Below are positions 2,939 to 16,040 of a DNA stretch of 21,585 nucleotides, piece after piece; the first letter of the stretch is position 1, and each line of letters opens with the position of its first letter. The notes under the pieces are model-generated. The model saw only the letters and a list, made by a program, of their open reading frames with translations, had not been told where the DNA came from and made no database searches. The stretch spans positions 1 through 21,585 of the IMG/VR virus record IMGVR_UViG_3300021519_001094; one strand, 5' to 3'. This DNA comes from a virus. A program made the position numbers and the translations under genes.

Positions 2939-2945
2939 TAAATAT
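2936..2945 (+). promoter_or_regulatory. late-promoter-like TAATAAATAT
   Basis: The same 10-mer as at 31-40, overlapping the stop region of the cupin gene and ending 18 nt before the next ATG. A GGAGA ribosome site lies between. It is probably a weak late promoter for the small gene that follows. Confidence 0.35.
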
Positions 2946-2962
2946 AATATCGGAGAACTATT

Positions 2963-3268
2963 ATGACAACTACACGAAGAATATTTGTAAGACCAGACAT
3001 TGCTATTCCATGGTATCATGAAATCGCAGGAACTTTACCAACTCAATTAAATTTTACTAACCAATTAAATGTGGCATATGTCGCCACTGGTAAACTGATT
3101 GAAAGAGTAATTTCTGTTACTCCTACGGTGTATACTGTAACAATAGAATGGGATAGTATCGAATCAATGAATGAACACTATGCCGATCCTATTACCATAG
3201 CTCATTTTGCAGAAAGAGATGCGTATAATGAAAGTAATGGAATTACTAATTCTGTATCAGTGTACTAA
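2963..3268 (+). CDS. hypothetical small protein (101 aa)
   Basis: A 101-residue soluble protein behind a good ribosome site (GGAGA, 6-nt spacing). No family is recognised. It ends three bases from the stop codon of the convergent oxygenase gene, with no hairpin between them. The length and the alternating strands (FVRPDI, VAYVATG, VYTVTIEWDS) followed by a helix (SMNEHYADPITIAHFAERDAY) are compatible with a small ferredoxin-like or antibiotic-monooxygenase-type (ABM) fold, but this is inference only. It may act with the upstream cupin. Confidence 0.6.
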   Translation: MTTTRRIFVRPDIAIPWYHEIAGTLPTQLNFTNQLNVAYVATGKLIERVISVTPTVYTVTIEWDSIESMNEHYADPITIAHFAERDAYNESNGITNSVSVY

Positions 3269-3271
3269 AGA

Positions 3272-3799
3272 TTATATTTCCAACAGATCAAATACTATAA
3301 AAATTAAATCGTTATCACTACTGTTGGTATAACTATGCCAACTTTTGTGATCGAATAGTACTACGCTGTTTTCTGCTATTACACTACCTGACTCTATTTC
3401 ACATTGTGCAGGAATATCTAAGTATATTTGATATCGTTTTACTACGTCAAAGTATGCTGGATCACGATATAAATTACTGCCATCTCGATGTCTTCCTACT
3501 ATTTTACCAGGATCAAGTCTATGAATGTACGTCCTTCCAAATCTAGTGTTATTTGCTATTTCAATTCTGAGGTTATCTAAGATATCTTGAATAGATTTAA
3601 TGTTGTCTGAGTCATGTTGAATCCAATCTCCGTGATCCTTGTAATGTAACCATATGGTTTTCCCAGAAAGTTCTGTATTTCCAGACAATGACATTGATTG
3701 ACCGGGAATCTCATGTGGCCCCCAAAAATCTGTTAGGTTATCAATACAAGTCCTAATGTAAGTAATTTCAGATGACGTCAATGATTTAATAATAGTCAT
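3272..3799 (-). CDS. Fe(II)/2-oxoglutarate oxygenase, aspartyl/asparaginyl hydroxylase-like
   Basis: A 175-residue protein. It has an HRD iron-binding pair (H104 and D106, context KIVGRHRDG) and a distal histidine at 155 (LFDHKSWHSYTN) on a predicted double-stranded beta helix, with RYQIYLDIP between them. This matches aspartyl/asparaginyl beta-hydroxylase-like and prolyl-hydroxylase-like dioxygenases, which use O2 and 2-oxoglutarate to hydroxylate a C-H bond. It is the last gene of the minus-strand operon, 6 nt after the previous oxygenase, with no clear ribosome site. It is smaller than the typical family member, so the substrate may be a free or carrier-bound small molecule. Confidence 0.72.
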   Translation of the reverse strand: MTIIKSLTSSEITYIRTCIDNLTDFWGPHEIPGQSMSLSGNTELSGKTIWLHYKDHGDWIQHDSDNIKSIQDILDNLRIEIANNTRFGRTYIHRLDPGKIVGRHRDGSNLYRDPAYFDVVKRYQIYLDIPAQCEIESGSVIAENSVVLFDHKSWHSYTNSSDNDLIFIVFDLLEI

Positions 3800-3805
3800 A
3801 ATGCT

Positions 3806-4423
3806 TTACTTGTATGCGTCATTTTCTGGAATAGTATTATACCATAACACTCTACGCCGCGGCGATCTGTTTAGTCTATACTCAGTGTTTAACATTTTGG
3901 TATCTAAAAAGTCTATCAGCAAACTTATCTTTGGTGTAGTGGCTGGATTTATAGCGTAATGCGTAGTGATATTATCTATCTCATATACATTTGGTAACTC
4001 TAATTTAAATAATCGTTCCTGGCTGACGAAATATGCATTGTCTATCAATAATGGAACTTGTATTCTTCTACCCACTAAATGGTAAAAACGAACGTCAGTA
4101 TGTCTAATCAATGACTCAGCTGGCGCCAAGTAACTTATCTCACATGAAAATACTGTCATATTATTAAATGTTTCCCAAGACTTTAATTCATCCAAAATAG
4201 TAGCTATAGAGCTAAAGTCGAGGTCATCTAATTTCTGTATGTAGGCTACACCTTCAGTTATTGGTGGCGGGACTGATATCAAATAATTATTGTATTTGAG
4301 TGCCGGTTCATTACGTTTAAATCTATCTTCTTTATAATCAATGTTTGATGCAAAATCGCTAGCCTTGCTAATCATATCAATTGGCAATTGTCCTATTACT
4401 TTGCACCCTTCATAAAAAAACAT
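3806..4423 (-). CDS. second Fe(II)/2-oxoglutarate oxygenase-like protein
   Basis: A 205-residue protein with H108-x-D110 (SLIRHTDVRF) and a distal histidine at about 155 (NITTHYAINP), separated by a strand RRIQVPLLIDNAYF. This is the facial-triad layout of aspartyl/asparaginyl hydroxylase-like oxygenases. It is only weakly similar to its downstream neighbour, so the two probably hydroxylate different positions or substrates. It starts 5 nt after the desaturase stop, without a strong ribosome site, as expected inside a coupled operon. The iron-binding assignment rests on motif spacing alone. Confidence 0.65.
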   Translation of the reverse strand: MFFYEGCKVIGQLPIDMISKASDFASNIDYKEDRFKRNEPALKYNNYLISVPPPITEGVAYIQKLDDLDFSSIATILDELKSWETFNNMTVFSCEISYLAPAESLIRHTDVRFYHLVGRRIQVPLLIDNAYFVSQERLFKLELPNVYEIDNITTHYAINPATTPKISLLIDFLDTKMLNTEYRLNRSPRRRVLWYNTIPENDAYK

Positions 4424-4428
4424 TCTAT

Positions 4429-5238
4429 CTATCGCAGTAATGGTAAAAATATTTTACATGGATCATATTCCCACCAGTTACCTGACACTCCGGTACCAAA
4501 GTCATAACTAGCCGGTGATTTATGATGATTATTATGCCATCCTTGGCCCCAGCAAAGGTAACCTAAAATAAAGTTATTTTGGCTATTATCCTTGGTATCA
4601 AAGTTCCTATAACTTAATTTAGTCTTTATGTGTCCGAATACATTGACTAGGTTGTCTTGTGTGCTTCCTATGAAGGTAACCAGACAAAAAGCGGTTAGCG
4701 CCAGTTGCCAGTCAAATATGGCGACTAGTAACGGTACCCCCCATAATATAACCAGACGATTTCTACTGAACCATACATGGTTCGGTTTACGTAATAAGTC
4801 AACCGCATATTTCAAATTAACGATATTATTGGCTTCTGTGATATTTTTGTACCATCCGATGAATGCATGCCACTTGCCATATACCACTGGACTGTGCAGA
4901 TCCTGCTCGGTATCACTATACCTATGATGATACCCTCGGTGTAATGCTACCCAAAATATTGATGCACCCTGGCCTGCAAAAATGGCCAGAGATAAAATAA
5001 TATTTTCTTTCCAAATAGGTAAGTTATGGGTCCTGTGACTGAATACTCTATGATAACCAACAGCAATACCAAGTCCACACACTAGTACCCACATGACAAA
5101 CGTAAACCCTAGATAGTACAGTGGAATTACGCCCAATGCCAGTAGTATAATTGTCAAGGTCCCCAGGATAACACTGGGTACCCATTGAAACCAAAATGAT
5201 GTGGATATAGTTGATAGGTATTTGTCTAGTTTATTCAT
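4429..5238 (-). CDS. membrane acyl-CoA/acyl-lipid desaturase
   Basis: A 269-residue integral membrane di-iron desaturase. The three histidine boxes are intact: HRVFSH (63-68), HRGYHH (100-105) and HNNHH (235-239), plus the usual extra histidine at 203. Hydrophobic segments at about 20-60, 80-100 and 165-200 give the four-helix topology. The family removes two hydrogens from an acyl chain held on CoA, ACP or a lipid, using O2 and an electron donor. Length is slightly below the ~300-residue norm. The start overlaps the stop of the upstream gene by 4 nt (ATGA). An ACP gene four positions upstream in the same operon suggests a carrier-bound substrate. Assignment is secure; regiospecificity unknown. 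Confidence 0.92.
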   Translation of the reverse strand: MNKLDKYLSTISTSFWFQWVPSVILGTLTIILLALGVIPLYYLGFTFVMWVLVCGLGIAVGYHRVFSHRTHNLPIWKENIILSLAIFAGQGASIFWVALHRGYHHRYSDTEQDLHSPVVYGKWHAFIGWYKNITEANNIVNLKYAVDLLRKPNHVWFSRNRLVILWGVPLLVAIFDWQLALTAFCLVTFIGSTQDNLVNVFGHIKTKLSYRNFDTKDNSQNNFILGYLCWGQGWHNNHHKSPASYDFGTGVSGNWWEYDPCKIFLPLLR

Positions 5239-5828
5239 AAATTTCCGCCTTGAGGTAATGAAGTTCGGTACTCCTGCTTCAAATAGTTACACCGAACAAC
5301 ACAGTCTTCGGATGATAGATATCGCTTGAATAATAATTCCCAGGCATTGGTGTAATAACACTTTTGTTTCGCTGGAACAAAATATTCATCAAAGTATCCA
5401 TACCGTTCATCATTGTATTTACTCCAATGAAATCGGCGGAGTAGTCTGCTGTGTCGTTGGTTTGCCAAAGTATAAAATTTTAATCTACCATTAGCTTCGT
5501 TATGTTCTATGACCTTATCTAAAACGGGTCTTAGTAATTCATTATCGCCACTGCTACGATATACAGTATAGTACCAAGCCGGCTCCTCGACACTTTCATA
5601 AAATGATATCAATGACTTTACCTCGCCGTCATCATCTACATATCCATATGCGTGAAAATTATCTAGATCGCTCAAATAATTCGAACAAAAAATATCGTAC
5701 AGTAATTTATTTCCGGGATTTTCTTTAGTAACACTTTTACCCAAGGTACTGGTACCCATGAATTTTTTAATATAAAACAGCGGTTTTACTTGTTCTATAT
5801 GTTCACTTGATAATTTAACTACCGGCAT
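5235..5828 (-). CDS. GNAT-like acyltransferase (tentative)
   Basis: A protein of about 197 residues. The ATG at 5828 is preferred because GGGGAG sits 4-5 nt upstream; an ATG at 5840 lies inside that site. It overlaps the end of the PP-loop gene by 14 nt. The segment FHAYGYVDDDGEVKSLISFY followed by EPAWYYTVYRS looks like the central strands of a GNAT acyltransferase, but the acetyl-CoA P-loop (Q/RxxGxG/A) is not obvious. It may be a degenerate GNAT or another alpha/beta protein. Its place between a PP-loop enzyme and a desaturase fits acyl or amino-acyl transfer. Confidence 0.55.
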   Translation of the reverse strand: MPVVKLSSEHIEQVKPLFYIKKFMGTSTLGKSVTKENPGNKLLYDIFCSNYLSDLDNFHAYGYVDDDGEVKSLISFYESVEEPAWYYTVYRSSGDNELLRPVLDKVIEHNEANGRLKFYTLANQRHSRLLRRFHWSKYNDERYGYFDEYFVPAKQKCYYTNAWELLFKRYLSSEDCVVRCNYLKQEYRTSLPQGGNL

Positions 5829-6744
5829 ACAACTCCCCAAATAATTTGATTTTTAATTCATCTATAAATATTCCGTCCAAACTGGTCACCAGTCGTTTCA
5901 CATGACTCTTACCCAGAGTATTGTAGGTTTCACCATTGAACCCCATTAGTTGTTCGTATCCATGTGTTTTTTGTTTATCAATAATAGATGGCATGTACTC
6001 TTTTAGTATATCATTCTTGGAACTTACACTTGCCAGCTTATAGTTATATCGTTCTGTGATCAACCTTTGTATGCTTTCATTTTCCAAGTAATATCCCATC
6101 ATTTCCGGTGTATAGGAAAACCACTCATTTACCAAAGGTATATTGTATTTGAGGCTAAAACGCATGGCACTGGCATCTTCATTTTCTCGAAAACAATAAT
6201 ACCAACTACTACCTGCCGAATTTACGTGCCGTCTAAGCAGCATCTCGCCACCCATTACTGCTGGCATTTTCATCTTTAATATATTGTAATACACAGACAA
6301 ATATGCGATTTGCCGGCATTGTATGGATCCTGCTAATTCGTATGCTTCACCCGATCTGTAAAATTTCTTAACATCAAAGTCAATTACATCTAGTTTGAAT
6401 CCAACATCATCAGCAATGCGGCATGCCATTTTATAGTCTTCTATATTGTAATCGTCGGTAAATTTAATGAATACAACTTTTGGTGCTGCGCCAATATGCT
6501 TAAAGGATCGCAGCACTATTTCACTATCAGTGCCGCCACTGAACATTACCGCAAAATCGTAATTGAAATCTTCAGCAACAAGTTCTGCTGTCCTGTACTG
6601 TTCTTCTAACCAATTACTGTTACGGTAATGATCATGATCAATACTACCAACATCAACTATAAACTTTTCGTAAGGGGTAGTCCTGTAGCCATATTCAACG
6701 TCACCTATAGTGTAGGTCAAATGATTGTTGTGTGTGAAATTCAT
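5815..6744 (-). CDS. PP-loop ATP pyrophosphatase, paralogue of the 84-1037 gene
   Basis: A 309-residue protein if read from the ATG at 6744, which follows the ACP stop codon directly (TGATATG). A longer TTG start is possible. It carries FAVMFSGGTDSEIVLRSF with the PP-loop SGGTDSE at about 69-75, and shares THNNH near the N-terminus and the general plan with the plus-strand copy. The family adenylates a carboxylate or carbonyl and releases pyrophosphate. Direct coupling to an acyl carrier protein gene suggests that it activates or amidates the carrier-bound group. No glutaminase or tRNA-binding domain is visible. Two diverged copies in one cluster imply two activation steps or two substrates. 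Confidence 0.83.
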   Translation of the reverse strand: MNFTHNNHLTYTIGDVEYGYRTTPYEKFIVDVGSIDHDHYRNSNWLEEQYRTAELVAEDFNYDFAVMFSGGTDSEIVLRSFKHIGAAPKVVFIKFTDDYNIEDYKMACRIADDVGFKLDVIDFDVKKFYRSGEAYELAGSIQCRQIAYLSVYYNILKMKMPAVMGGEMLLRRHVNSAGSSWYYCFRENEDASAMRFSLKYNIPLVNEWFSYTPEMMGYYLENESIQRLITERYNYKLASVSSKNDILKEYMPSIIDKQKTHGYEQLMGFNGETYNTLGKSHVKRLVTSLDGIFIDELKIKLFGELYAGS

Positions 6745-6745
6745 A

Positions 6746-6961
6746 TCACATGAGGTCAATCAAATTTTGGACAGTTTTAATCATTACAGTATCAGGTAAT
6801 TCTATGTTGAATTGCTCTTCATAATAAAGTTGTAGTTCAATGATGTCTAAACTATCTAAGCCTAGTAGATTCAGACCATCATCTAGATTTACCGTAACTT
6901 TTTTGCCAAACAGTTTAAATACCGCATCTTGCAAAAACTCAATTTTTTCATGTTCTGTCAT
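6746..6961 (-). CDS. acyl carrier protein
   Basis: A 71-residue acidic, helical protein with the phosphopantetheine attachment motif LGLDSLDIIELQ; the modified serine is residue 37. Length and charge are typical of ACPs in fatty-acid, polyketide or amino-acid-carrier systems. The start is taken as the ATG at 6961, although a TTG two codons earlier is in frame. It overlaps the upstream GNAT gene by 14 nt, and its own stop is followed at once by the PP-loop start. No phosphopantetheinyl transferase gene is seen in the window, so a host enzyme would have to load it. Confidence 0.88.
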   Translation of the reverse strand: MTEHEKIEFLQDAVFKLFGKKVTVNLDDGLNLLGLDSLDIIELQLYYEEQFNIELPDTVMIKTVQNLIDLM

Positions 6962-7493
6962 ATTCAATAACCCATTGTGTTGTGTAATATATCGATTTCT
7001 TACCTATTGGTTTAAATCTTTTATAAATTTCCGGCCAATCTGTTGATAGTGCTGGACATTTACCTGCTGCAACTCTTTCAAAGTATATATAAAGGGCTCG
7101 ATTGTATTCATTCACCGTGGACCATATATACTGATAATTTTTTGCTTCGTTAACCGCGAGAGGTAGTACATGTTTGCCGAGTAGGTATTGACATCGATAT
7201 TCTGGAGTTACATACATTCGTGTCAACATAAGTGCAACATCGGTATCTAATTCGTACTCATTCCACCCTGCACTTGCTATGTACTTACCATCTATTGTAA
7301 CGACATAATATTTTCCATGACCACGGTGATATCTACCGTGTTGTAATATGTAAAATAGGTTTCCTGGTTGACTGCTATAATCAGGATGATAGTTTTCTAT
7401 AATAGAATCTTCTTCAATTTTCGAAAAGGAAAATTTTAGTAGGTCAACTATCTTTGTATTGGTTAAATCATTAAGTTCATGTATCTGCATCAT
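6948..7493 (-). CDS. GNAT family N-acyltransferase
   Basis: A protein of about 181 residues with a recognisable GNAT core. KYYVVTIDGKYIASAGW is the central strand pair, LTRMYVTPEYRCQYLLGKHVL covers strand beta4 plus the CoA-binding loop (R/QxxGxG-like RCQYLLGKH), and STVNEYNRALYIYFER is the usual late helix. GNATs move an acyl group from CoA or ACP to an amine. This is the first gene of the operon driven by the promoter at 7558-7586. ATG codons at 7493 and 7490 and a TTG at 7517 are all possible starts, and none has a strong ribosome site. The ACP gene overlaps its 3' end, so the acyl donor may be the ACP. Confidence 0.75.
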   Translation of the reverse strand: MMQIHELNDLTNTKIVDLLKFSFSKIEEDSIIENYHPDYSSQPGNLFYILQHGRYHRGHGKYYVVTIDGKYIASAGWNEYELDTDVALMLTRMYVTPEYRCQYLLGKHVLPLAVNEAKNYQYIWSTVNEYNRALYIYFERVAAGKCPALSTDWPEIYKRFKPIGKKSIYYTTQWVIEYDRT

Positions 7494-7557
7494 TTTAATC
7501 TGAGGTATAATACGCAAGATCTCAAGTCATGCATGTATTTCAATCTCACATGTTACT

Positions 7558-7586
7558 ATTATATAGTGTGTTACTGTTACTGTCAA
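7558..7586 (-). promoter_or_regulatory. consensus sigma70 promoter for the acyl-carrier operon
   Basis: On the minus strand: TTGACA, a 17-nt spacer, then TATAAT, both hexamers perfect. The predicted start is near 7551, about 58 nt before the preferred ATG of the GNAT gene. It directly follows the stop codon of the radical SAM gene, separating the two transcription units. Confidence 0.85.
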
Positions 7587-8531
7587 CTATTTTGATATCG
7601 TAATAGGATTATATTTGCTAAGGCTGATGTCTCCAGGATGTACACATCTAGCTCTAGGACAAATCAGGGACTCATTAAGCAAATTGAAATTTGAAATGTT
7701 CCCTAGTAATTGAGCATTGCATATTCCTGCGCTAACTTCACCGTTAGCGGATACGTATATACTTTCACTACCAGCAGTACATCGCCAATTATGAAAATAA
7801 TGTAATCCTTCTGCCATAATTGTATTTGGGACAACGCGACTGATATCGCCATTCGAATAAACTGCTCTAATGTCCCATGATATACTTGAATCTAATTTGG
7901 TAGGATAGTTTTTAATAAAATCTAATTGATCAGATGTATATGAATACATATCTTTGGTAAATGAGTCTTGATCAAGTATAACTTTTGGAATAATAAATGG
8001 TTTGAATCGATCATCAACATCATTGACTATTTCCATTACTGTATCCCACATATCTGGATGACACATAAGATTAAACTGTATGTCTACCCCACCATCTTTT
8101 AAAAATTCACATAGCTGATTAATTTTTAATTTTTTGGAGTTGTAGTATTCTGGATGCAATGATAAAATTACTAGATGTGGCTGTTTAGGTAATGTTTGCC
8201 ACCAGCCGACACTTCTGGCACCATTTGTTGTAACGATAATAGTAGCACTATCATGTAGTCGTTCAATTATGTTTGAGAATTTATTATGTAATGTAGGTTC
8301 GCCACCTGATATATTAACGACTAATCTCTTTTGAGTTTGCTGCTGTATAGTAATTAATTTATCGAGAAACAAGTCAATCTCACTATCATTCGGAAAAGAT
8401 GGACTATTAGCGTATGCTCCAAGATTTAATGCCGAAGGACAGTAGGTACAATGCTGATTACAGAAATCAGTCAAGGTCCAATATACAAATATTTCATTGT
8501 TTAAATTTTTAATTTCTATCAGCTTTCTCAT
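7587..8531 (-). CDS. radical SAM enzyme with C-terminal auxiliary-cluster cysteines
   Basis: A 314-residue protein. The radical SAM motif is CNQHCTYC (C24, C28, C31), followed by the SAM-binding SGGEPT near residues 75-80 in a partial TIM barrel. The C-terminal part has four further cysteines (C251, C271, C291, C296) in the context CTAGSESIYVSANG and CPRARC, resembling a SPASM or twitch domain that binds an extra Fe-S cluster. Enzymes of this build modify peptides or small molecules. The ribosome site AGGAT is 3 nt before the ATG. It has its own unit upstream of the ACP operon promoter. Class is firm; the reaction is not predictable. Confidence 0.85.
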   Translation of the reverse strand: MRKLIEIKNLNNEIFVYWTLTDFCNQHCTYCPSALNLGAYANSPSFPNDSEIDLFLDKLITIQQQTQKRLVVNISGGEPTLHNKFSNIIERLHDSATIIVTTNGARSVGWWQTLPKQPHLVILSLHPEYYNSKKLKINQLCEFLKDGGVDIQFNLMCHPDMWDTVMEIVNDVDDRFKPFIIPKVILDQDSFTKDMYSYTSDQLDFIKNYPTKLDSSISWDIRAVYSNGDISRVVPNTIMAEGLHYFHNWRCTAGSESIYVSANGEVSAGICNAQLLGNISNFNLLNESLICPRARCVHPGDISLSKYNPITISK

Positions 8532-8544: not shown

Positions 8545-8628
8545 TGGTGCCCCAGGCGAGACTCGAACTCGCACGGATTTCTCCACTAGTTCCTAAGACT
8601 AGCGTGTCTGCCATTCCACCACCAGGGC
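8545..8628 (-). tRNA. tRNA-Leu(TAG)
   Basis: An 84-nt class II tRNA with encoded CCA. Acceptor GCCCTGG/CTGGGGC, anticodon loop CTTAGGA (anticodon TAG, reads CUA), canonical T-loop TTCGAGT. It lies one base from the stop codon of the next upstream small gene. Confidence 0.95.
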
Positions 8629-8629
8629 T

Positions 8630-8875
8630 TTACTCATTAGCTGCCTTTAAACAATATATTAGATATTCGTCCTCGGTCATCCATATCCATTTTGAGTACT
8701 GAGTATCACCATATCCAACCCACTGCTGATATCTACGCCCCCACCGTAACCATATTACGCAGTTACTTTGAGTACACCGATGTGGTAACCAAGCAAAACA
8801 CTTATCATAAACTGGAAATCGGGGCATCCACACATCTTCCTGCATGGTGGGATACATGCTATTATCTAATGGCAT
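8630..8875 (-). CDS. hypothetical protein, Trp-rich (81 aa)
   Basis: An 81-residue basic and aromatic protein with many tryptophans and tyrosines (repeated W/Y pairs such as WLRWGRRYQQWVGY). There is no signal peptide or membrane helix. Its ATG overlaps the TAA of the preceding RNase H-like gene (TAATG), so it is coupled to it, and its stop is one base from tRNA-Leu. I do not recognise a family. A later Met start (MYPTM) is possible. Confidence 0.6.
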   Translation of the reverse strand: MPLDNSMYPTMQEDVWMPRFPVYDKCFAWLPHRCTQSNCVIWLRWGRRYQQWVGYGDTQYSKWIWMTEDEYLIYCLKAANE

Positions 8876-9345
8876 TATTCGTTAACCGCCTTCAAACTTC
8901 TGAATCTATCAGCAGCGTAACTAGCAGCAAAACCATGTGGTTTAACACGAGGTTCTACATTACAAGTACCACGAATATATCCAATAGCTTGCGCGACTAC
9001 ATTAGAACTTTTGTACTCATCATCTGGGTTAATGTCAAGGTGAACTTCAACCTCGCGGTTTTCCAGAACTTCTGCTAGTTTAAGATACAGTTCACTTACC
9101 TTAAACACTTCAGTCATAAGCCTAGTGTTAGGTCGATCAACACGATCATAATCTCTTTCGCGAGTTACCTCACCAAACAGTTTACAACCATGTTTTCCAT
9201 CTAAGTGAACAACGATAGCCGCTGTGTAGTCAGCATACCATTGCGTACCTTTTTTAACTCGTTCTGAGTCCACGCCAATATAAATTTTAGTGTCGGGACC
9301 TTGTCTATCTATGAACTCTTTGATTTGTGGTATGTTGAACTTCAT
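8875..9345 (-). CDS. RNase H-like protein of the YkuK/DUF458 type
   Basis: A 156-residue protein. IYIGVDSERVKKGTQWYADYTAAIVVHLDGKHG is, in pieces, the N-terminal beta hairpin of an RNase H-like fold with a leading aspartate (D25). EVHLDINPDDEYKSSNVVAQAIGYI carries the second and third acidic positions. This matches the uncharacterised YkuK (DUF458) family, predicted to be a nuclease and also known from phages. Ribosome site GAGAGG is 5 nt upstream of the ATG. It sits inside the tRNA array, so a role in RNA processing is possible but is inference. Confidence 0.7.
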   Translation of the reverse strand: MKFNIPQIKEFIDRQGPDTKIYIGVDSERVKKGTQWYADYTAAIVVHLDGKHGCKLFGEVTRERDYDRVDRPNTRLMTEVFKVSELYLKLAEVLENREVEVHLDINPDDEYKSSNVVAQAIGYIRGTCNVEPRVKPHGFAASYAADRFRSLKAVNE

Positions 9346-9365
9346 TACGACCTCTCAGGTTAATT

Positions 9366-9441
9366 TGGCGGGCAAGGTAGGACTCGAACCTACAACCAAC
9401 GGTTTTGGAGACCGCTATTCTGCCAATTGAACTACTTACCC
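9366..9441 (-). tRNA. tRNA-Trp(CCA)
   Basis: A 76-nt tRNA with encoded CCA. Acceptor GGGTAAG/CTTGCCC, discriminator G, anticodon loop CTCCAAA, T-loop TTCGAGT. Confidence 0.95.
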
Positions 9442-9466
9442 ATGTTAATACTATTTACTGTACTAC

Positions 9467-9543
9467 TGGTACCTGTTTCTGGAATCGAACCAGAGACCTC
9501 CACCTTATCAAGATGATGCTCTAACCAGCTGAGCTAAACAGGT
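9467..9543 (-). tRNA. tRNA-Ile(GAT)
   Basis: A 77-nt tRNA with encoded CCA. Acceptor ACCTGTT/AACAGGT, discriminator A, anticodon loop TTGATAA, canonical T-loop TTCGATT. Confidence 0.95.
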
Positions 9544-9550
9544 ATTACTG

Positions 9551-9627
9551 TGGTGCGTCCGGAGAGATTCGAACTCCCAACAGCTGGTTTCGAAGACCAG
9601 AACTCTATCCAGTTGAGCTACGGACGC
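9551..9627 (-). tRNA. tRNA-Arg(TCG)
   Basis: A 77-nt tRNA with encoded CCA. Acceptor GCGTCCG/CGGACGC, anticodon loop CTTCGAA (reads CGA), T-loop TTCGAAT. Confidence 0.94.
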
Positions 9628-9635
9628 AATATATT

Positions 9636-9784
9636 TTTCAGGTGCCCCACTATCCCTTTTGTGGGGACTCACGGGATTGTCTCGTTAAACAAGTTTATAC
9701 ACCGACTTCAGCCATATTGTTTTGTCACGTAACAGCAGGTCACGTTAGACTGGCAGGGACTCTAACTTAACGTCTATCCTGAAA
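9636..9784 (-). ncRNA. unassigned structured RNA between tRNAs
   Basis: About 149 nt with no open frame, closed by TTTCAGG (5') and CCTGAAA (3') on the minus strand. Internal helices visible by eye are CGTGAC/GTTACG with a 5-nt loop, CCCCAC/GTGGGG, TTGT/ACAA around a TAACGA loop, and two competing pairings near the 5' end (ACGTTA/TAACGT and GTTAGA/TCTAAC). In order TAACGAGACAAT, GAGTCCC plus hairpin, CCTGAAAAAT, it shares motifs with 14034-13859 inside the large RNA. It is not a tRNA. It may be a compact relative of the large RNA. Confidence 0.5.
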
Positions 9785-9786
9785 CT

Positions 9787-9882
9787 TGGTAGTAGCGTAG
9801 AGATTCGAACTCTACCGTTGCAGCCCATCTGACCACTCTCCCGGGTTTATAAAACCCAGCCGCACAACCAGTGCTCGCTACT
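9787..9882 (-). tRNA. aberrant 96-nt tRNA-like gene, possible anticodon TAT
   Basis: The ends are convincing: acceptor AGTAGCG/CGCTACT (7 perfect pairs), discriminator A, encoded CCA, and a canonical T-arm TAGAG-TTCGAAT-CTCTA. The middle is not. GCAC/GTGC encloses only 5 nt in the D position. A hairpin TGGGT-TTTATAA-ACCCG could be an anticodon arm reading AUA, but ~27 nt of unpaired-looking sequence then precede the T-arm. An alternative long pairing GTTG..CGGC with GCTG..CAAC is possible. It may be a tRNA with an insertion, a decayed tRNA, or a tRNA-like RNA. Confidence 0.5.
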
Positions 9883-9888
9883 ATTGTA

Positions 9889-9974
9889 TGGCGGGTAGTG
9901 TTGGATTCGAACCAACGCACCGTTACCGATGACGGCTTAGCAAGCCGCTCCTTTAACCACTCAGGCAACTACCC
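9889..9974 (-). tRNA. tRNA-Ser(GCT)
   Basis: An 86-nt class II tRNA with encoded CCA. Acceptor GGGTAGT/ACTACCC, discriminator G, anticodon GCT (reads AGC/AGU), long variable arm, T-loop TTCGAAT. Confidence 0.95.
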
Positions 9975-9990
9975 ATAAACTTTAAAACTT

Positions 9991-10083
9991 TGGCGGGCAG
10001 CAGAGGAGTCGAACCCCATCCCCATTACAGAGAACCTGGTTTTCAAGGCCAGTCGCAGGACCAACCCCGCTGCATTACTACCC
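9991..10083 (-). tRNA. tRNA-Ser(TGA)
   Basis: A 93-nt class II tRNA with encoded CCA. Acceptor GGGTAGT/GCTGCCC, anticodon loop CTTGAAA with a C-A mismatch closing the loop, variable arm TTCTC/GGGGA, T-loop TTCGACT. Confidence 0.9.
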
Positions 10084-10093
10084 ATTAAAACTT

Positions 10094-10127
10094 TGGTACA
10101 GCTAAGGAGAATCGAACTCCTCTTACT
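10094..10127 (-). pseudogene. tRNA 3' half (T-arm, acceptor strand and CCA only)
   Basis: On the minus strand, T-arm AGGAG-TTCGATT-CTCCT is followed by TAGCTGT, discriminator A and CCA. No matching 5' strand (ACAGCTA) with D-arm lies upstream; the sequence before it is the CCA of tRNA-Glu plus a short AT spacer. It is a relic of a tRNA, or one half of a split tRNA. The only other minus-strand ACAGCTA copies found lie in a promoter and in the exonuclease gene, with no D-arm. Confidence 0.7.
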
Positions 10128-10133
10128 AATTAT

Positions 10134-10210
10134 TGGCGTCCCTACCCGGTGACGATCCGGGTTTGCCCGCGTGAAAGGCGAGTGTTCTAACCAACGTAAA
10201 CTATAGGGAC
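10134..10210 (-). tRNA. tRNA-Glu(TTC)
   Basis: A 77-nt tRNA with encoded CCA. Acceptor GTCCCTA/TAGGGAC, anticodon loop CTTTCAC. The T-loop is ATCGTCA instead of TTCRANY: the usual U54-A58 pair is replaced by A54-U58, as in the tRNA-Asp of this window. The 5' base directly abuts the stop codon of the homing endonuclease gene. Confidence 0.92.
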
Positions 10211-10938: not shown

Positions 10939-11024
10939 TGGTGGAGTATACTGGGATCGAACCAGTCGTGCCACAAGGGCGCCAGATTTACAGTCTAGTG
11001 CATCACCATTGATGCTTCTACTCC
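10939..11024 (-). tRNA. tRNA-Tyr(GTA)
   Basis: An 86-nt class II tRNA with encoded CCA. Acceptor GGAGTAG/ATACTCC with one mismatch at the base, discriminator A, anticodon GTA within AGACTGTAAATCT, T-arm ACTGG-TTCGATC-CCAGT. Confidence 0.93.
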
Positions 11025-11035: not shown

Positions 11036-12508
11036 TTAAGTAAACTTCTTAAGTGTAAGTATAGCACGATCACGCACCGTTTGTCTACCACGCCATTCTA
11101 AATTTAATTCTAATGTTGTTTTATTATCAATGTCATAGTCGGATACATTATTATGCCATGCTGAACTAATTATCCATCCGCCGCATTTTATGATTCCGGA
11201 TGATTGGTTTAGTAGTTTACCCGCTGTCGTAAGTGATTCAACAGATGTCATTAATTCATTCTTCCAAAAACTATTTTCGCCTGGTTTTTTAATAACAGTA
11301 TATCCATATTTTTCTGGATCACGCTCCAGTGGACTTATTAACGTTGATTCTTTTTCAACATCATTATAACTATAAATTCCAAGGCTACTGAAATTCCATG
11401 ATCTAAACAATTGAGGATTAGCTTTACAAAAATCAAAGGTTTTATACATATCATCTATTGTATCGCCTGGCAATCCTACTATAAATCCTGCGTTTAATTT
11501 AACTTGACCAGTGCTAGTTAACTCTGTAAGAGAATGTAATACCTTATCAATATTCATTCCTTTATTCATTGCTCGCCTAGCGACATTGTTCATACTCTCT
11601 ATGCCAACAAATCCACCAGTAAGCCCCATTCGCAACAACTGCGGAATCATCTCGGGCTTAGTTACTAATAACTCTGGTTTAATGTAACATTGAAATTCAA
11701 AGTTGGGTATCTTTGCTAATTCTATCGCTTGTTCAAGTCTGTTTAACTTTTCTATACTATCATTGAACGTATCATCCATCACCGAATATCTAGTAGTACC
11801 AAACAATTCGTAGTTGCGACGAAGTTCGTTACTTAGACTAGCAGGTGTTCTCATGTATGAATCGTAATCTTTAGCGCCTTGAAAAGGATGGTTACAAAAC
11901 ACACATCTAAAGATACACCCTCTACTGACTTCTAGTGGTATTGGTTGATGACTATAAAAAGCATCATCTGCTATTAGTACAGTTTCAATGTCATCGGGAT
12001 TTCCGATAGTGTGAAACTTATTACTGTCCACAGTTTTTTTACCATTGCTGTCAATAAAATACTTTAACTGATGTCCTGACTTGCCGTCTAACAACATTAG
12101 AAATCTAGGAAAACTATCATCACTAAACCCACTAATGTGCCAGTCAGCTGAATTATATATTTCACGAGCACCTGGCATACGTAATACGCCATTGCCACCT
12201 GCGACAATTTTTATCTGTGGGTACTTAGAACGAATTCTGTTAAAAAAATCTTTGTTAATCCATTCAATGTCACCATGGGCATTGTGTGGACGATCTAACC
12301 AAACTGTGCTGACGCCTAAAAATAATGTCTTAGTAGTAATGACATTATCTAGTAATAGTTCTAACTCAGCTTGGGTCATTGCGGTAGCACAATCAATAAC
12401 TAAGTTATCATAATTGAATTTCTCTGCGGCTGTGCGTAGACGATAGCCTGCGATATTTCTACCTGCGCTGTCATTTCTACTACCGCATAATATTATTCCA
12501 TGATACAT
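11036..12508 (-). CDS. B12-binding-type radical SAM protein
   Basis: A 490-residue protein. The N-terminal ~140 residues form an alternating alpha/beta domain (ILCGSRND..., KTLFLGVSTVW, KIVAGGNG, ADWHISG) as in cobalamin-binding radical SAM enzymes, though the DxHxxG cobalamin ligand is not seen. The radical SAM motif is EVSRGCIFRCVFCNHPF (C198, C202, C205), followed by barrel strands including TGGFVGIES and NAGFIVGLPGDT, typical of the B12-radical SAM/Elp3-like class. A C-terminal extension of ~100 residues is unassigned. The start ATG has AAGGAG about 13 nt upstream, longer than usual. It lies between tRNA-Tyr and tRNA-like genes. Class is firm; substrate unknown. Confidence 0.8.
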   Translation of the reverse strand: MYHGIILCGSRNDSAGRNIAGYRLRTAAEKFNYDNLVIDCATAMTQAELELLLDNVITTKTLFLGVSTVWLDRPHNAHGDIEWINKDFFNRIRSKYPQIKIVAGGNGVLRMPGAREIYNSADWHISGFSDDSFPRFLMLLDGKSGHQLKYFIDSNGKKTVDSNKFHTIGNPDDIETVLIADDAFYSHQPIPLEVSRGCIFRCVFCNHPFQGAKDYDSYMRTPASLSNELRRNYELFGTTRYSVMDDTFNDSIEKLNRLEQAIELAKIPNFEFQCYIKPELLVTKPEMIPQLLRMGLTGGFVGIESMNNVARRAMNKGMNIDKVLHSLTELTSTGQVKLNAGFIVGLPGDTIDDMYKTFDFCKANPQLFRSWNFSSLGIYSYNDVEKESTLISPLERDPEKYGYTVIKKPGENSFWKNELMTSVESLTTAGKLLNQSSGIIKCGGWIISSAWHNNVSDYDIDNKTTLELNLEWRGRQTVRDRAILTLKKFT

Positions 12509-12616: not shown

Positions 12617-12694
12617 TGGCGACCAATATGGGTAACGATCCCATCGATATCCCGCGTGACAGGCGGGCGACCACACCATGCAGTCCCATTGGCC
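12617..12694 (-). tRNA. tRNA-Asp(GTC)
   Basis: A 78-nt tRNA with encoded CCA. Acceptor GGCCAAT/ATTGGTC, discriminator G, anticodon arm CCCGC-CTGTCAC-GCGGG. The T-arm ATGGG-ATCGTTA-CCCAT has the same A54/U58 swap as tRNA-Glu. It lies at the 3' end of the large structured RNA region and may be processed from the same transcript. Confidence 0.92.
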
Positions 12695-12706
12695 TAATTC
12701 TTTATT

Positions 12707-12792
12707 ACCATATTGAAATACACTATACGATATGACCTCTGCAATGCTATTGCTGATTCGGGACTAGTTCGTACAATATACTTCAATATGGT
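12707..12792 (-). repeat. stem-bounded RNA module A
   Basis: An inverted-repeat module of 86 nt. The minus-strand arms (12792-12770 and 12729-12707) pair over 23 bp, with G-U at four places and no mismatch; two outer A-T pairs extend it. The interior is about 40 nt and contains a GCAAT/ATTGC hairpin. No tRNA T-arm is seen. Confidence 0.8.
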
Positions 12793-12841
12793 AACAGTCC
12801 ATCCAAGCAAGGGCGTGTGACCATTGCACTTGAACAGGGCT

Positions 12842-12934
12842 ACCATATTGAAACACACTAGCACTTCCCTTTAGGTGGGGCGGGAAGTTTATGGCTGTTG
12901 CCCCACTCCGTTACCGCTAATGCACTTCAATATG
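12842..12934 (-). repeat. stem-bounded RNA module B with H-type pseudoknot
   Basis: A 93-nt module with arms 12842-12862 and 12916-12934. Three inner pairs changed relative to other modules are all G-U on the minus strand. Inside, two 7-bp helices interlock: 12863-12869 with 12882-12888 (ACTTCCC/GGGAAGT) and 12875-12881 with 12900-12906 (GTGGGGC/GCCCCAC). This is a classic H-type pseudoknot with directly abutting stems. Confidence 0.8.
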
Positions 12935-13132
12935 ACATCTACTATTTTTTATTAAACTAGCTCACTGTGAGCATCTCCAACCTCCACGGTGGCGTAATAA
13001 GCCTTGCTATAATTTTCATTACGCTATGATCACTTGCGTAACTTCCGTTATAGTAATCGCAATCTGAAGCCACCACCGTCGCAGTCGAGAATCAGTTTCC
13101 ATTATACTATAGTTCAATAAAAAATACTAGTA
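12935..13132 (-). ncRNA. linker between modules B and C, structured
   Basis: 198 nt without an open frame. Helices on the minus strand include TTACGC/GCGTAA, a long-range CGGTGG..GCCACCG pairing, and GCTCA-CAG-TGAGC near the 3' end. A TATAGTATAAT string also occurs in the 715-nt linker, but no -35 accompanies it here. It also carries ATAACGGAAG, a variant of a motif repeated across the region. Confidence 0.45.
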
Positions 13133-13267
13133 ACCATATTGAAATACACTACGGAGTCGAACCGCCTTGCTAGCTTACTCACCCGGAGTCCATGGACGTT
13201 CGAGTAACCAGAACACCCGCCGCTAAACGGGCTCGTTACTCTACTTGCTAGTGTACTTCAATATGGT
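13133..13267 (-). repeat. stem-bounded RNA module C, with T-arm-like hairpin
   Basis: A 135-nt module with 19-bp arms at 13133-13151 and 13249-13267 (minus-strand ACCATATTGAAGTACACTA with its partner). Inside are a GAGTAAC/GTTACTC stem capped by CCCG/CGGG, an alternative TTACTC/GAGTAA pairing, and CGG-TTCGACT-CCG next to the closing stem, which is a short version of a tRNA T-arm. No anticodon arm is evident. Confidence 0.75.
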
Positions 13268-13375
13268 TCCCTATCGTCGTCACGGTCAAGTGCCTATTGT
13301 CGGGATTCGTAGCTACTAGACCCCGACTTTCCCGATGACTAGTCGGGCAGGGTCGGCGTTTTTCACTGTGTACTA
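13268..13375 (-). ncRNA. linker between modules C and D, structured
   Basis: 108 nt on the minus strand with a 17-nt hairpin CCCGA-CTAGTCA-TCGGG, shaped like an anticodon arm, and GTCGGG/CCCGAC enclosing a 17-nt loop. Several C-rich and G-rich blocks (GACCC, GGGGTC) compete for pairing. No acceptor stem or CCA is seen, so it is not annotated as tRNA. Confidence 0.45.
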
Positions 13376-13451
13376 ACCATATTGAAATACACTATGAAGG
13401 ATTATTTCTTGGCTTATCAAACTTATGCCACCCTTAATGTACTTCGATATG
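13376..13451 (-). repeat. stem-bounded RNA module D
   Basis: A 76-nt module, the shortest. Arms at 13376-13394 and 13435-13451 pair as in the others, with one true mismatch (C-A on the minus strand, where the plus strand would give G-U). The interior folds as AAGG/CCTT around TGGC/GCCA. No tRNA features. Confidence 0.7.
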
Positions 13452-13652
13452 ACCCCACCGTTAACGACAGCATGCGTCCTGGCTTTATTTAAACTCGGTT
13501 GCCGCACGGTGGGAACACGGGCCGATTTTATGATTTGTGTCTGTCCCCTCACGCTCTCTTACTCTTGGGACAGCCTTACCTTGCTTTCTCATGAACAACA
13601 CCGAATAGCGATCCGTATTGTTCCGGGCGGGTCTACTTGCGGTAGCACACAA
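13452..13652 (-). ncRNA. linker between modules D and E, structured
   Basis: 201 nt with three clear minus-strand helices: GAACAATAC/GTGTTGTTC (9 bp with a wobble), CTGTCCC/GGGACAG (7 bp), and CCCACCGT/ACGGTGGG (8 bp, long range). A short open frame on the plus strand here has no ribosome site and crosses module E, so it is not a gene. CTACCG at the start can also pair with CGGTAG just across module E. Confidence 0.5.
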
Positions 13653-13762
13653 ACCATATTGAAATACACTCTACAGGAATCGAACCTGTGAACATCGTTG
13701 GCACGATGCTATGAATCCACCACTCGGCTTGCGCTTCGCCTTTGAATGTACTTCAATATGGT
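13653..13762 (-). repeat. stem-bounded RNA module E, tRNA-like (possible GCC anticodon)
   Basis: A 110-nt module with arms 13653-13671 and 13744-13762 (19 bp, two G-U). Its interior is tRNA-like: T-arm ACAGG-TTCGATT-CCTGT is canonical, a D-like GAGT-GGTGG-ATTC hairpin is present, and the anticodon arm is GCATC-GTGCCAAC-GATGT (8-nt loop) or CATCG-TGCCAA-CGATG (6-nt loop), with GCC (Gly) in place. An extra GGC/GCC hairpin sits between acceptor and D-arm. No CCA is encoded, and the acceptor merges with the long shared stem. Confidence 0.7.
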
Positions 13763-14477
13763 GTAGGCTACTAAATCCCTCTAGCCCCTACCGGAGTTGT
13801 CTACCCTGTCCGTCTGATTATTCTCTATGAGTATGGGCATGTTCAGCAACACCCTACGATTTTTTCAGGCTCCCGACAGAGGGACTCTAAGGTAGATCGT
13901 AAGCACCCTTAACTTTATCGTGGAGTTAATTCACGCCCTATTAATAACGGCTAGGGACGCCGGGATTCTTATAAGTGAATGCTATCTGCTATTATACTAT
14001 AGCCACCATTGTCATTAGTTGTATTGTCTCGTTATGGACAACAATAACCCTATTGTCGTTTGCTTTTATCGCTGAACTCTTATACAAGGGCATTGGCCAA
14101 TGCTGATCTTGCTTTCGTTTCAGGCAACAGTTTAGATCGCGCTAGCTAGACGGAGGATCCATCGCCTGTGCATTTTCCAAGTGAACACTGGAATTTTCCA
14201 AAACAATACAACTAATAACAACTAAGTGCTTTCTCCCTGCGGCGGTAACTATAGCATATTTAAGTTGACTAATTATGCCTTCCATCCGCTTCCCGACCAG
14301 GGAGAACTCTCGTGTTGCCAACGCCGGTTAGGTTAGACCGCAGCTTTCGCTGGAGCAGATTCTTCATCTCCGTTACCAGAGGTAGACCCTTGCTCGAACC
14401 ACCCGTAGCCATCACAGCTACTTCATCGTCTGGGCTCAGACTAGGCACTGATTAGGTTGCCGTGGACTTTTTGCTTA
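13763..14477 (-). ncRNA. 715-nt linker: large structured RNA core
   Basis: The longest non-coding stretch. Minus-strand helices seen by eye include GTAGC/GCTAC, a CAGC-GAAA-GCTG tetraloop hairpin, a GCATTGG/CCAATGC palindrome, GACAATA/TATTGTTGTC, CCCTA/TAGGG, TTAACT/AGTTAA, and a 3' hairpin GTAGG..CCTAC beside module E. The segment 14034-13859 shares three colinear motifs with the RNA at 9636-9784. GGTAACGGAG recurs in module B. No reading frame of note. Size and setting recall GOLLD or ROOL RNAs; a covariance-model search would decide. Confidence 0.55.
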
Positions 14478-14596
14478 CGCAATATTGAAACACACTACAA
14501 CTCTGGCAACGCGATTTATACCCTTAAATGAGGATACGCCATCGGGCTTTCCTAGGAACCCTTTCCAGTCTTAAGGTAATGTACTTCAATATTGCG
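14478..14596 (-). repeat. stem-bounded RNA module F (promoter-proximal)
   Basis: A 119-nt module with 20-bp arms at 14478-14497 and 14577-14596. Its outer pairs differ from the other five (CGCAATATTG instead of ACCATATTG), yet both arms changed together, so pairing is kept by compensatory change. The interior has TACC-TTAA/TTAAGGGTA (one bulge) and GGGTTCC/GGAA..CCC helices. It is the first element of the predicted transcript. Confidence 0.8.
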
Positions 14597-14640
14597 TCTG
14601 TTTTTTAAAGAACAAGTACTGCATTTCTTACTATACAAAC

Positions 14641-14669
14641 ATTATAGCTGTAGATGATTTAACTGTCAA
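14641..14669 (-). promoter_or_regulatory. perfect sigma70 promoter for the large RNA
   Basis: Minus strand: TTGACA (14669-14664), 17-nt spacer, TATAAT (14646-14641). Both hexamers are consensus. The predicted start is near 14634, 38 nt before module F, and no start codon with a ribosome site follows. It lies downstream of tRNA-Cys, so it serves the RNA region only. Confidence 0.88.
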
Positions 14670-14692
14670 CCACTGTGCTAAAATACAACAAT

Positions 14693-14770
14693 TGGAGGTG
14701 AGGGTCGGAGTCGAACCGACGGTTTTCCGGATTTGCAATCCAGTGCAATGGGCCACTCTGCCACCTCACC
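14693..14770 (-). tRNA. tRNA-Cys(GCA)
   Basis: A 78-nt tRNA with encoded CCA. Acceptor GGTGAGG/CCTCACC is perfect, discriminator T as usual for Cys, anticodon loop TTGCAAA, T-loop TTCGACT. Confidence 0.95.
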
Positions 14771-14774
14771 TTAT

Positions 14775-14783
14775 ATTATACCA
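14775..14783 (-). promoter_or_regulatory. extended -10 promoter at tRNA-Cys
   Basis: TGGTATAAT on the minus strand is an extended -10 with a perfect TATAAT. No good -35 is seen. The predicted start (near 14768) falls within two bases of the mature tRNA 5' end, so the primary transcript might need little or no 5' trimming. Confidence 0.4.
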
Positions 14784-14894
14784 TTTTACACATTCCCGTT
14801 ATCGCCAGGAACTTATCATCCGGTATTCCGCCCACATTAATAGTAGCATGTTTAAAGTGCGCTACAGGCTCGCGTTGCCTATCACACTTACTAC
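14784..14894 (-). ncRNA. structured intergenic segment upstream of tRNA-Cys
   Basis: About 110 nt with no gene. On the minus strand, AAGTGTG/CGCACTT encloses AGGC-AACGCGA-GCCT, with TAGTA/TACTA outside it, and GGAA..TTCC follows. It begins just after an intrinsic terminator, so it would be made only by read-through or from an unseen promoter. Function unknown. Confidence 0.3.
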
Positions 14895-14930
14895 AAAAAC
14901 AAAAAACCCTGGAGTATTTCTAGTCCAGGG
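14895..14930 (-). terminator. intrinsic terminator of the small transcript from 15121
   Basis: Minus strand hairpin CCCTGGA / TCCAGGG (7 bp, 10-nt loop) followed by TTTTTTGTTTTT. Strong rho-independent form. Confidence 0.9.
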
Positions 14931-14959
14931 TCCTTAAAGTTTACGACGTTAGCTATTGC

Positions 14960-15118
14960 TTAACCATCACATCCTTCTCGAACCCCACTATACTCCTTGC
15001 CTGTTTCAATCATATTAAATACTGAATCATTTCCTGAGCGTAAGGCCACCGCTGGACTCCAGCATAATGCTAGTGTCTGGGGCAACTGATACGATATGGA
15101 ATGGCTTGTGTTTTTCAT
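14960..15118 (-). CDS. possible near-leaderless 52-residue ORF, or small structured RNA
   Basis: An ATG frame of 52 codons begins only ~3 nt after the start predicted from the promoter at 15128-15156 and ends 30 nt before the intrinsic terminator. The transcript is therefore ~230 nt and nearly filled by this frame. There is no ribosome site. The peptide begins MKNTSHSISYQLPQ and ends EYSGVREGCDG; no family, signal peptide or membrane helix is recognised, and base composition is richer in GC than the neighbouring genes. The RNA also has AGCAT/ATGCT and GTTA/TAAC hairpins. It may be a regulatory RNA, a microprotein, or both. Confidence 0.4.
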   Translation of the reverse strand: MKNTSHSISYQLPQTLALCWSPAVALRSGNDSVFNMIETGKEYSGVREGCDG

Positions 15119-15127
15119 GTTAAGTTA

Positions 15128-15156
15128 TTTTACTGCTTGGTAATTTAATTGTCAAC
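15128..15156 (-). promoter_or_regulatory. sigma70 promoter of the small transcript
   Basis: Minus strand: TTGACA (15156-15151), 17-nt spacer, TAAAAT (15133-15128). Predicted start near 15121. With the terminator at 14895-14930 it defines an isolated ~230-nt unit. Confidence 0.8.
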
Positions 15157-15231
15157 TTCTTTTTGGGAAGTTTGTAAAGTTATTTAGTCAATGTATAAAT
15201 TATACGCAATTAACTAGGTAAAATCAAGTAT

Positions 15232-15262
15232 TTTGATAAAAATAGGGACCGAAGTCCCTATT
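15232..15262 (-). terminator. intrinsic terminator of tmRNA
   Basis: Minus strand hairpin AATAGGGAC-TTCG-GTCCCTATT with a UUCG tetraloop, running into TTTTATC. It ends the tmRNA coding piece. Confidence 0.9.
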
Positions 15263-15640
15263 GCTATTTTCTGTTACTAGGTATAAGCTACCCTACGCCA
15301 GTGATTAAACTGCGAAAGTTTCGGCTTTCACTGAACTACGAGCAGAGAAACGAATTTCTTTGCCAGCTGATACAGTTACTTCGCCTTTAGATGCGTTTGC
15401 GTCTAGGTTTTTTCACTTTTAACGTCTATCTGGTGACGAGTTGTCCATGCAGTTACTTGTTGCCCCGTCGAAACCTGGTCAGGCCCATCAAAAACATACT
15501 ACAAGGTATCCAGACTTCCCGCTCCGGGTAATCAACGTTTTACCGGTCGCCGATTTAGTAATATGTTTATGGTGGACCTGGCGGGAATTGAACCCGCGTC
15601 CGGAACACTTTTTACTTTACTTCATACAACAATTCTTTAA
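15263..15640 (-). ncRNA. ssrA: circularly permuted two-piece tmRNA
   Basis: Transfer-messenger RNA, which frees stalled ribosomes and tags the broken protein. In minus-strand order the acceptor piece comes first: GGACGCGGGTTCAATTCCCG leads to CAGGTCC-A-CCA ending at 15570. An 83-nt intervening segment (15487-15569) follows. The coding piece then starts at 15486 with GGGCCTG, soon followed by the conserved GGTTTCGACGGGG. GGGCCTG pairs with CAGGTCC and contains the G3-U70 wobble read by alanyl-tRNA synthetase, with A73 as discriminator. TAGAC precedes the resume codon GCA, as TAGTC does in E. coli. The order 3' piece before 5' piece is the permuted form known from alphaproteobacteria and some cyanobacteria and betaproteobacteria. 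It is followed by a UUCG terminator. The 5' limit of the acceptor piece is approximate. Confidence 0.93.
15305..15400 (-). other. tmRNA tag reading frame (31 residues)
   Basis: From resume codon GCA at 15400 the frame runs 31 codons to TAA. The tag starts AN, as in most bacteria, but is far longer than the common 8-15 residues and ends ETFAV rather than ALAA. The central part (GEVTVSAGKEIRFSA) is basic and strand-like, and its residue pattern resembles the C-terminal end of HU-type DNA-binding proteins. No earlier stop exists in this frame. Confidence 0.8.
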
Positions 15641-15645
15641 TTCTA

Positions 15646-15885
15646 TTAGTCTATCGTATATACTGTTGCTGTTGTTGGAAATTTTTGGTTTTCCTGTAAT
15701 GACCTTGCAAAATCGCAAAAAGTATTAGCCGCAGCTTCATCAACCCACGAGCGAGCAAATCTACCGTTATATGTTGTTTCTAGACCATTACCTACGGTCT
15801 GTGTACTGATGTAGTTAATCATTAATTGATTTTCAGCATCATTCATTGGTCTTGTCCAGTTTACTACTGTTATATATGTGCTCAT
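15646..15885 (-). CDS. hypothetical protein (79 aa)
   Basis: A 79-residue soluble protein with ribosome site AGGAG, 6 nt before the ATG, and an ACTAAATAA box upstream. N-terminal strands (ITVVNWTRP) are followed by helices (AENQLMINYISTQT, DEAAANTFCDFARSL). Its stop is a few bases before the tmRNA acceptor piece, so both may lie on one transcript. No family recognised. In size and pattern it slightly recalls the 101-residue protein at 2963-3268, but similarity is not convincing. Confidence 0.65.
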   Translation of the reverse strand: MSTYITVVNWTRPMNDAENQLMINYISTQTVGNGLETTYNGRFARSWVDEAAANTFCDFARSLQENQKFPTTATVYTID

Positions 15886-15923
15886 AATGAACTCCTGTAT
15901 TAAACACTTATTTAGTTAAATCT

Positions 15924-15999
15924 TGGTGCCCCCGGAGGGATTTGAACCCCCGACCAAGCGATTATGAGTCGCCTGCTCTCACCACTGAGCTACAGGGGC
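15924..15999 (-). tRNA. tRNA-Ile2(CAT), lysidine type
   Basis: A 76-nt tRNA with encoded CCA. Acceptor GCCCCTG/CGGGGGC, anticodon loop CTCATAA. The D-arm and anticodon arm (GAGCAGGCGACTCATAATCG) match bacterial tRNA-Ile2 rather than Met, so the CAT is expected to be modified to lysidine and read AUA. It starts ~6 nt after the predicted start of the promoter at 16012-16040. Confidence 0.88.
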
Positions 16000-16011: not shown

Positions 16012-16040
16012 ATTATAACTACATTAACTATAGTTGTCAA
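16012..16040 (-). promoter_or_regulatory. consensus sigma70 promoter for tRNA-Ile2 and tmRNA unit
   Basis: Minus strand: TTGACA, 17-nt spacer, TATAAT, both perfect. Predicted start near 16005, six bases before tRNA-Ile2. It overlaps the last codons of the upstream gene. The unit probably continues through the 79-residue gene into tmRNA. Confidence 0.87.

Follow-up and report, generated by a model that had tools for sequence, protein, structure and literature searches.

A two-piece phage tmRNA with a long tag whose core appears to be selected as a peptide

The tag specified by a tmRNA is normally a short degron near the host type; in betaproteobacteria it is usually ANDExFALAA. Two-piece tmRNAs are also found in phages: that of the methylophage Melnitz was described in 2022 by a study that counted 53 among public phage genomes (PMC9004378), and the Rfam model for permuted tmRNAs, RF04321, stems from a 2025 update of the tmRNA database (PMC11915505). 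Tags may also change together with their proteases. Mycoplasma and Mesoplasma lack ClpXP, and their tags are directed to Lon (PMC9382460). Since two-piece phage tmRNAs were published in 2022, the gene described here is not new as a class. The novelty is its tag, the unusual part, which a first-pass annotation of this DNA overlooked.

The gene is complete and occupies the minus strand at 15636-15270 of the window, that is, of the whole stretch analyzed, a 21.6-kb IMG/VR contig from a freshwater phage. The first-pass annotation had put a permuted tmRNA at 15263-15640, and its coordinates are right: ARAGORN calls a permuted tmRNA at 15214-15662, and two Rfam models match on the same strand, tmRNA_permuted (RF04321; 111.3 bits, gathering threshold 47, E 2.5e-21) and beta_tmRNA (RF01850; 92.8 bits, gathering threshold 84, E 3e-27). 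The pieces stand in reversed order, as had been claimed, the acceptor piece (15636-15570) upstream of the coding piece (15486-15270) with exactly 83 nt between them (15569-15487). The acceptor piece, delimited by the RF04321 alignment, coordinates and fold, comprises a 5' part that pairs with the coding piece, the T-arm, and the 3' acceptor strand CAGGTCC (15580-15574), followed by A73 (15573) and CCA (15572-15570). The coding piece, delimited by ARAGORN, Rfam and coordinates, begins at 15486 with the 5' acceptor strand GGGCCTG and goes on through GGTTTCGAC (15475-15467), a pseudoknot region, the tag frame and a hairpin beyond it. The two strands make an acceptor stem of seven pairs (G1-C72, G2-C71, G3-U70, C4-G69, C5-G68, U6-A67, G7-C66), in which G3-U70, with A73, supplies alanine identity. 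TAGAC (15405-15401) directly precedes the resume codon GCA at 15400, where a frame of 31 codons begins (15308-15400; ARAGORN, coordinates and family alignment), reading ANASKGEVTVSAGKEIRFSARSSVKAETFAV and closed by TAA (15307-15305). The post-tag hairpin, CACTGGCGTAGGG...CCTAGTAACAG (15271-15303), is seen in the alignments and is common to short-tag relatives. Every element that the first-pass annotation had picked out, from the paired stem to the TAGAC before GCA, is present in the sequence.

That the gene is of the two-piece kind had been claimed from the order of its parts, and ARAGORN, RF04321, the coordinates and the stems of relatives all support this. In the predicted fold, the ends of the intervening segment lengthen the acceptor stem, and this part of the precursor (15582-15474) has a minimum free energy of -39 kcal/mol, with z -4.0 against shuffles. 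This is as expected if tRNA-processing enzymes excise the segment, as they presumably would. The whole precursor folds no better than shuffles (z -0.8); the acceptor and intervening part alone stands out. Among related genes with long tags, 35 of 36 have all seven acceptor pairs, pairing having been a requirement of the scan. G3-U70, which the scan did not require, is present in 33 of the 35 whose acceptor stem is readable. The acceptor stems covary across these relatives, which puts the identification as tmRNA far beyond chance.

Upstream on the same strand lies a sigma-70-type promoter-like site, TTGACA-17-TATAAT (16012-16040), which matches the consensus at 12 of 12 positions and which we infer to be a promoter for what follows: tRNA-Met with anticodon CAT (15924-15999; ARAGORN, and 72.3 bits to the Rfam tRNA model) and then the tmRNA. 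Between these two is an ORF of 79 amino acids (15646-15885) that has no match in PHROGs. The tmRNA is followed by a predicted intrinsic terminator, AATAGGGACTTCGGTCCCTATTTTTATC (15235-15262, minus strand, from coordinates and fold), a 9-bp stem with a UUCG loop (-13 kcal/mol, z -4.7).

Ten tRNA genes (Leu, Trp, Ile, Arg, Ile, Ser, Glu, Asp, Cys, Met) lie around the tmRNA, at 8545-10210 and 12617-15999 of the window; Rfam has a further tRNA match at 10942-11024, where ARAGORN makes no call. About 1.9 kb (12705-14597) holds no convincing genes and contains six non-coding units (12705-12794, 12842-12936, 13128-13268, 13371-13453, 13648-13762 and 14477-14597), each ending in a terminal inverted repeat of roughly 20 bp, ACCATATTGAAGTACACTA...TAGTGTATTTCAATATGGT on the minus strand. 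They have no Rfam match and fold far better than shuffles (z -3.1 to -10.8); the unit at 13648-13762 is cloverleaf-like, with a T-arm motif. One relative (L004) lacks the stretches 12860-13249 and 13401-13653, at repeat borders, and a single unit stands alone in a 340-kb relative (L139/L271), as if the units were gained and lost as cassettes. Elsewhere in the window, 84-8531 and 11036-12508 carry a group of genes that looks biosynthetic: an asparagine synthase/QueC-like PP-loop ATPase, an ATP-grasp-like protein, a cupin-like protein, an Asp/Asn beta-hydroxylase, a fatty acid desaturase, an acyl carrier protein, a GNAT acetyltransferase and radical SAM enzymes.

The gene had been called phage-encoded, and the contig's family does have jumbo phages such as PA5oct as its closest cultured relatives; by the exonuclease encoded beside the tmRNA, the closest are PA5oct-type phages, at 50% identity. 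RF04321 has no match in PA5oct, XaC1, CBB or Atu_ph07. It does match in Phosso, and the permuted tmRNA of phage X1 encodes a tag unrelated to this one. Phage tmRNAs had been described as known but uncommon: known they are, but "uncommon" understates their number, with the 53 already counted (PMC9004378) and well over 80 further permuted tmRNAs with short host-like tags, e.g., ANDEQFALAA, among the IMG/VR matches listed. An alphaproteobacterial, cyanobacterial or betaproteobacterial donor had also been proposed, with a check against the three corresponding models. In the window, neither the alpha nor the cyano model rises above threshold and only beta_tmRNA does, so the origin narrows to beta-type (some relatives match alpha_tmRNA just above threshold). 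A search for a donor or host by tmRNA pattern in bacterial and archaeal genome contigs gave no match.

The tag is another matter. It has 31 residues where about 10 are usual, and it ends in FAV, unlike the short betaproteobacterial tag. Relatives were first collected by way of the neighboring exonuclease gene, leaving the tag out of account, and a second search used the tag; together these give a family of 33 distinct peptides of 27-31 residues from 36 coding sequences, all in contigs of uncultivated phages. The consensus is ANASTGEVTVSGKNVKFSARTAKxxSLAV. Its conserved core, GEVTVSGKNVKFSAR, is about 16 residues long, and A1, V8, T9, V10, K14, F18, A30 and V31 are invariant. The C-terminus is -[LF]AV, not -LAA: all 33 peptides end in AV, and none has the LAA or AA of the SsrA degron. 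Coding lengths are always whole codons, 84-96 nt including the stop. Two phage tags, ANASNDEVFALAA and ANAANDEVFALAA, look intermediate (ANAS-NDEV-FALAA against ANAS-TGEV-TVSGK...LAV), which suggests that the long tag arose by insertion within an ordinary one.

The core loosely resembles HU/IHF, an origin that was dropped: searches of Pfam, PHROGs and the PDB with the tag gave nothing convincing (the best PDB match, E 0.02, was to repeat proteins, with no stretch significant alone), and the large contigs of relatives yielded no HU gene. Structure prediction gives a possible beta-hairpin for the core, weakly (pLDDT 61).

Has the core been kept for what it encodes? Codon changes in columns 6-21, counted along a minimum spanning tree of related sequences and not a proper phylogeny, number 38 synonymous and 16 non-synonymous. 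The null expectation is 13.5 +/- 3.0 synonymous changes, with a maximum of 27 in 20,000 simulations, so the observed excess, about 2.8-fold, was never reached. The peptide pattern used in the tag-based search favors conserved peptides, so the 15 sequences whose discovery did not depend on the tag were also tested by themselves: they show 24 synonymous changes against 13 non-synonymous, where the null gives 8.5 +/- 2.4 and again never attains the observed value. The excess is also present in columns 6-12, outside the search pattern (P 0.0004), it holds when transition bias is included in the null, and it is missing from the ends of the tag.

Conservation of the core for RNA structure or processing, and not for the peptide, would be the competing account. 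Several core codons are indeed invariant at the DNA level (GTA ACT, TTC), and a small hairpin may form between codons 14-15 and 17-19, in which one C-G to A-U exchange is tied to a K/R change at column 17. RNA-level constraint acts on the tag too. As the whole explanation it is improbable, however, as it would have to accommodate not only the synonymous excess but also serine kept across TCN and AGY codons, lysine/arginine kept by AAG and CGT, indels of whole codons only, and other frames broken by stops (frame +1 in all variants, frame +2 in most). Comparison of the sequences shows instead a core kept by selection on its amino acids. The frame lacks a start codon and so could be read by trans-translation alone; together with selection at the peptide level, this argues indirectly that the phage puts its tmRNA to use and that phage tmRNAs really tag proteins.

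The gene might instead have been captured passively from a host and be carried as a neutral passenger whose tag drifts. Pattern and tblastn searches found no relatives of the tag in about 85,000 bacterial and archaeal genomes (the pattern being strict and the search not exhaustive), none in plasmids at the sensitivity used, and none in the cultured phages of the collection searched (best match E = 8). In the exonuclease tree, long-tag phages do not form one clade; the tag type changes five times, long and short tags being swapped between close relatives. Two sister phages, one with a long tag (L029) and one with a short (L036), are 85% identical in the DNA downstream of the gene, yet the tmRNA itself differs, which points to probable exchange of the locus by recombination among close relatives. 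Such exchange would suit a passenger, as would the beta-type match and the host-like tags, ANDEQFALAA among them, on many IMG/VR phage contigs. But a drifting tag is hard to square with strong selection on its core, with the retention of G3-U70 in genes whose acceptor sequences covary, or with the persistence of the tag in relatives whose tRNA-like domains have diverged, and we consider capture without function very unlikely. At the DNA level the core averages 83% identity; the pseudoknot region has 48% and the 5' tRNA-like part 37%, the last two figures being rough, as the blocks were cut at fixed distances.

That divergence of the tRNA-like part goes far in some long-tag relatives. Several, L133, L129 and L121 among them, have lost GGTTTCGAC and the T-loop consensus and still reach 64-76 bits with RF04321. 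In these three, as in L126 and L111, ARAGORN misses the tRNA-like domain and the near-universal GGTTTCGAC is gone, while 7-bp acceptor stems with G3-U70 are retained. One could imagine that such RNAs inhibit the tmRNA system of the host or act on it as decoys; a phage RNA of that form, the domain-only tmRNA of mycobacteriophage DS6A, is already known (PMC4131195, PMC11915505). Against this, nothing is missing from the coding piece, resume codon, tag or stop, and selection on the tag acts at the level of the peptide, so that a decoy seems scarcely credible.

What remains is a working two-piece phage tmRNA that would add a phage-specific tag of 27-31 residues, selected as a peptide, by means of host factors, a reading to which we would give roughly three chances in four. 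By this account, the precursor would be split in two by host tRNA enzymes and the RNA charged with alanine by host AlaRS; host SmpB would then carry it to ribosomes that have stalled, and the stalled protein would receive the phage tag. As far as tagging, these steps are well supported by the sequence. It is less certain that the tag continues to serve as a degron, with a weakened signal of the LAA kind at its end, and that the inserted core binds a new partner.

Possible partners were sought in 11 large long-tag contigs of 86-340 kb, and bacterial controls were positive; the window contig (21.6 kb) is too short to reveal SmpB or Clp genes. SmpB was found in none of the 11 (the contigs may be incomplete), implying a need for host SmpB. 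The first-pass annotation had the phage controlling ribosome rescue and tagging; control of a kind is plausible, but self-sufficient trans-translation, with a phage-encoded SmpB, is not what these contigs display. SspB was likewise absent from all 11, and so was Lon, which had been considered as the partner protease. A ClpA-like unfoldase is present in eight (TIGR02639 at about 785 bits, below the cut-off of 993). Two of the contigs, G011 (the 340-kb L139 contig) and G015 (the L113 contig), also encode ClpX above NCBIfam cut-offs, with ClpS and ClpP (two copies of ClpP in G011). The ClpA-like sequences of both carry NNIGFGKS, whose IGF tripeptide stands where the ClpP-docking loop would be expected. 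The Clp regions lie at 303-334 kb in G011 and 118-147 kb in G015, with the ClpA-like genes apart from those for ClpX, ClpP and ClpS. The idea that Clp genes are partners of the long tag alone was rejected: they occur in 5 of 15 contigs with short or other tags and in cultured jumbo phages, including some without this tmRNA, and therefore characterize the phage group and not the long tag.

In E. coli, a tag variant ending in AAV is degraded more slowly than LAA yet still targets ClpXP (PMC9382460), so the AV end of the phage tag might be expected to act as a weaker signal of the LAA type; degradation of the tagged proteins we infer. The slower turnover in E. coli would also suit a tag that is no degron at all, shielding rescued proteins from host ClpXP and SspB or adding some other function, as would the replacement of the host-type LAA end by AV in all 33 peptides and the weakly predicted beta-hairpin. 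This alternative is credible, if on balance unlikely, since AAV does still lead to ClpXP, a hydrophobic residue before AV remains a plausible degron, and the phages have Clp unfoldases and proteases of their own. If it were true, phages would rescue ribosomes without losing the products. For the tag as a modified degron, the conserved core probably binds something: a phage Clp unfoldase or other Clp machinery, an adaptor, or a host factor such as a protease. A bolder version, which we regard as doubtful, makes tagging private, the tag being either read as a degron by the ClpA-like, ClpX and ClpP proteins of the phage or protected from host ClpXP and SspB, with tags exchanged as alleles; the phage would then decide which rescued proteins are degraded. 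What a phage may gain by encoding a rescue RNA of its own, whether quicker recycling, protected products or a private route of degradation, thus becomes testable, and the long tag may be one half of a new degron-protease pair.

The gene resembles the tmRNAs of RF04321 and RF01850 in gene order, acceptor pairing, T-arm, G3-U70 and CCA, and also in its intervening segment, GGTTTCGAC, resume codon and post-tag hairpin. It differs in being phage-borne and in its tag, 31 residues ending in FAV as against about 10 ending in ALAA, and some of its long-tag relatives differ further by lacking GGTTTCGAC and the T-loop consensus. With Melnitz and the pelagimyophages (PMC9004378) it shares an aquatic tailed phage and a circularly permuted tmRNA, but theirs are of alphaproteobacterial type and associated with a glutamine riboswitch, and Rfam finds no riboswitch in the window. 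The jumbo Sinorhizobium phage AP-J-162 (PMC11242549), of a different phage group, likewise combines in one large genome a tmRNA and phage Clp genes, including clpX. The SsrA tags of Mycoplasma and Mesoplasma (PMC9382460) are comparable in being longer than the E. coli tag and in having a changed C-terminus, although the phages have Clp genes and Lon was not found in them. The long tag of Mesoplasma, matched to Lon and not to ClpXP (PMC9382460), is the closest functional parallel.
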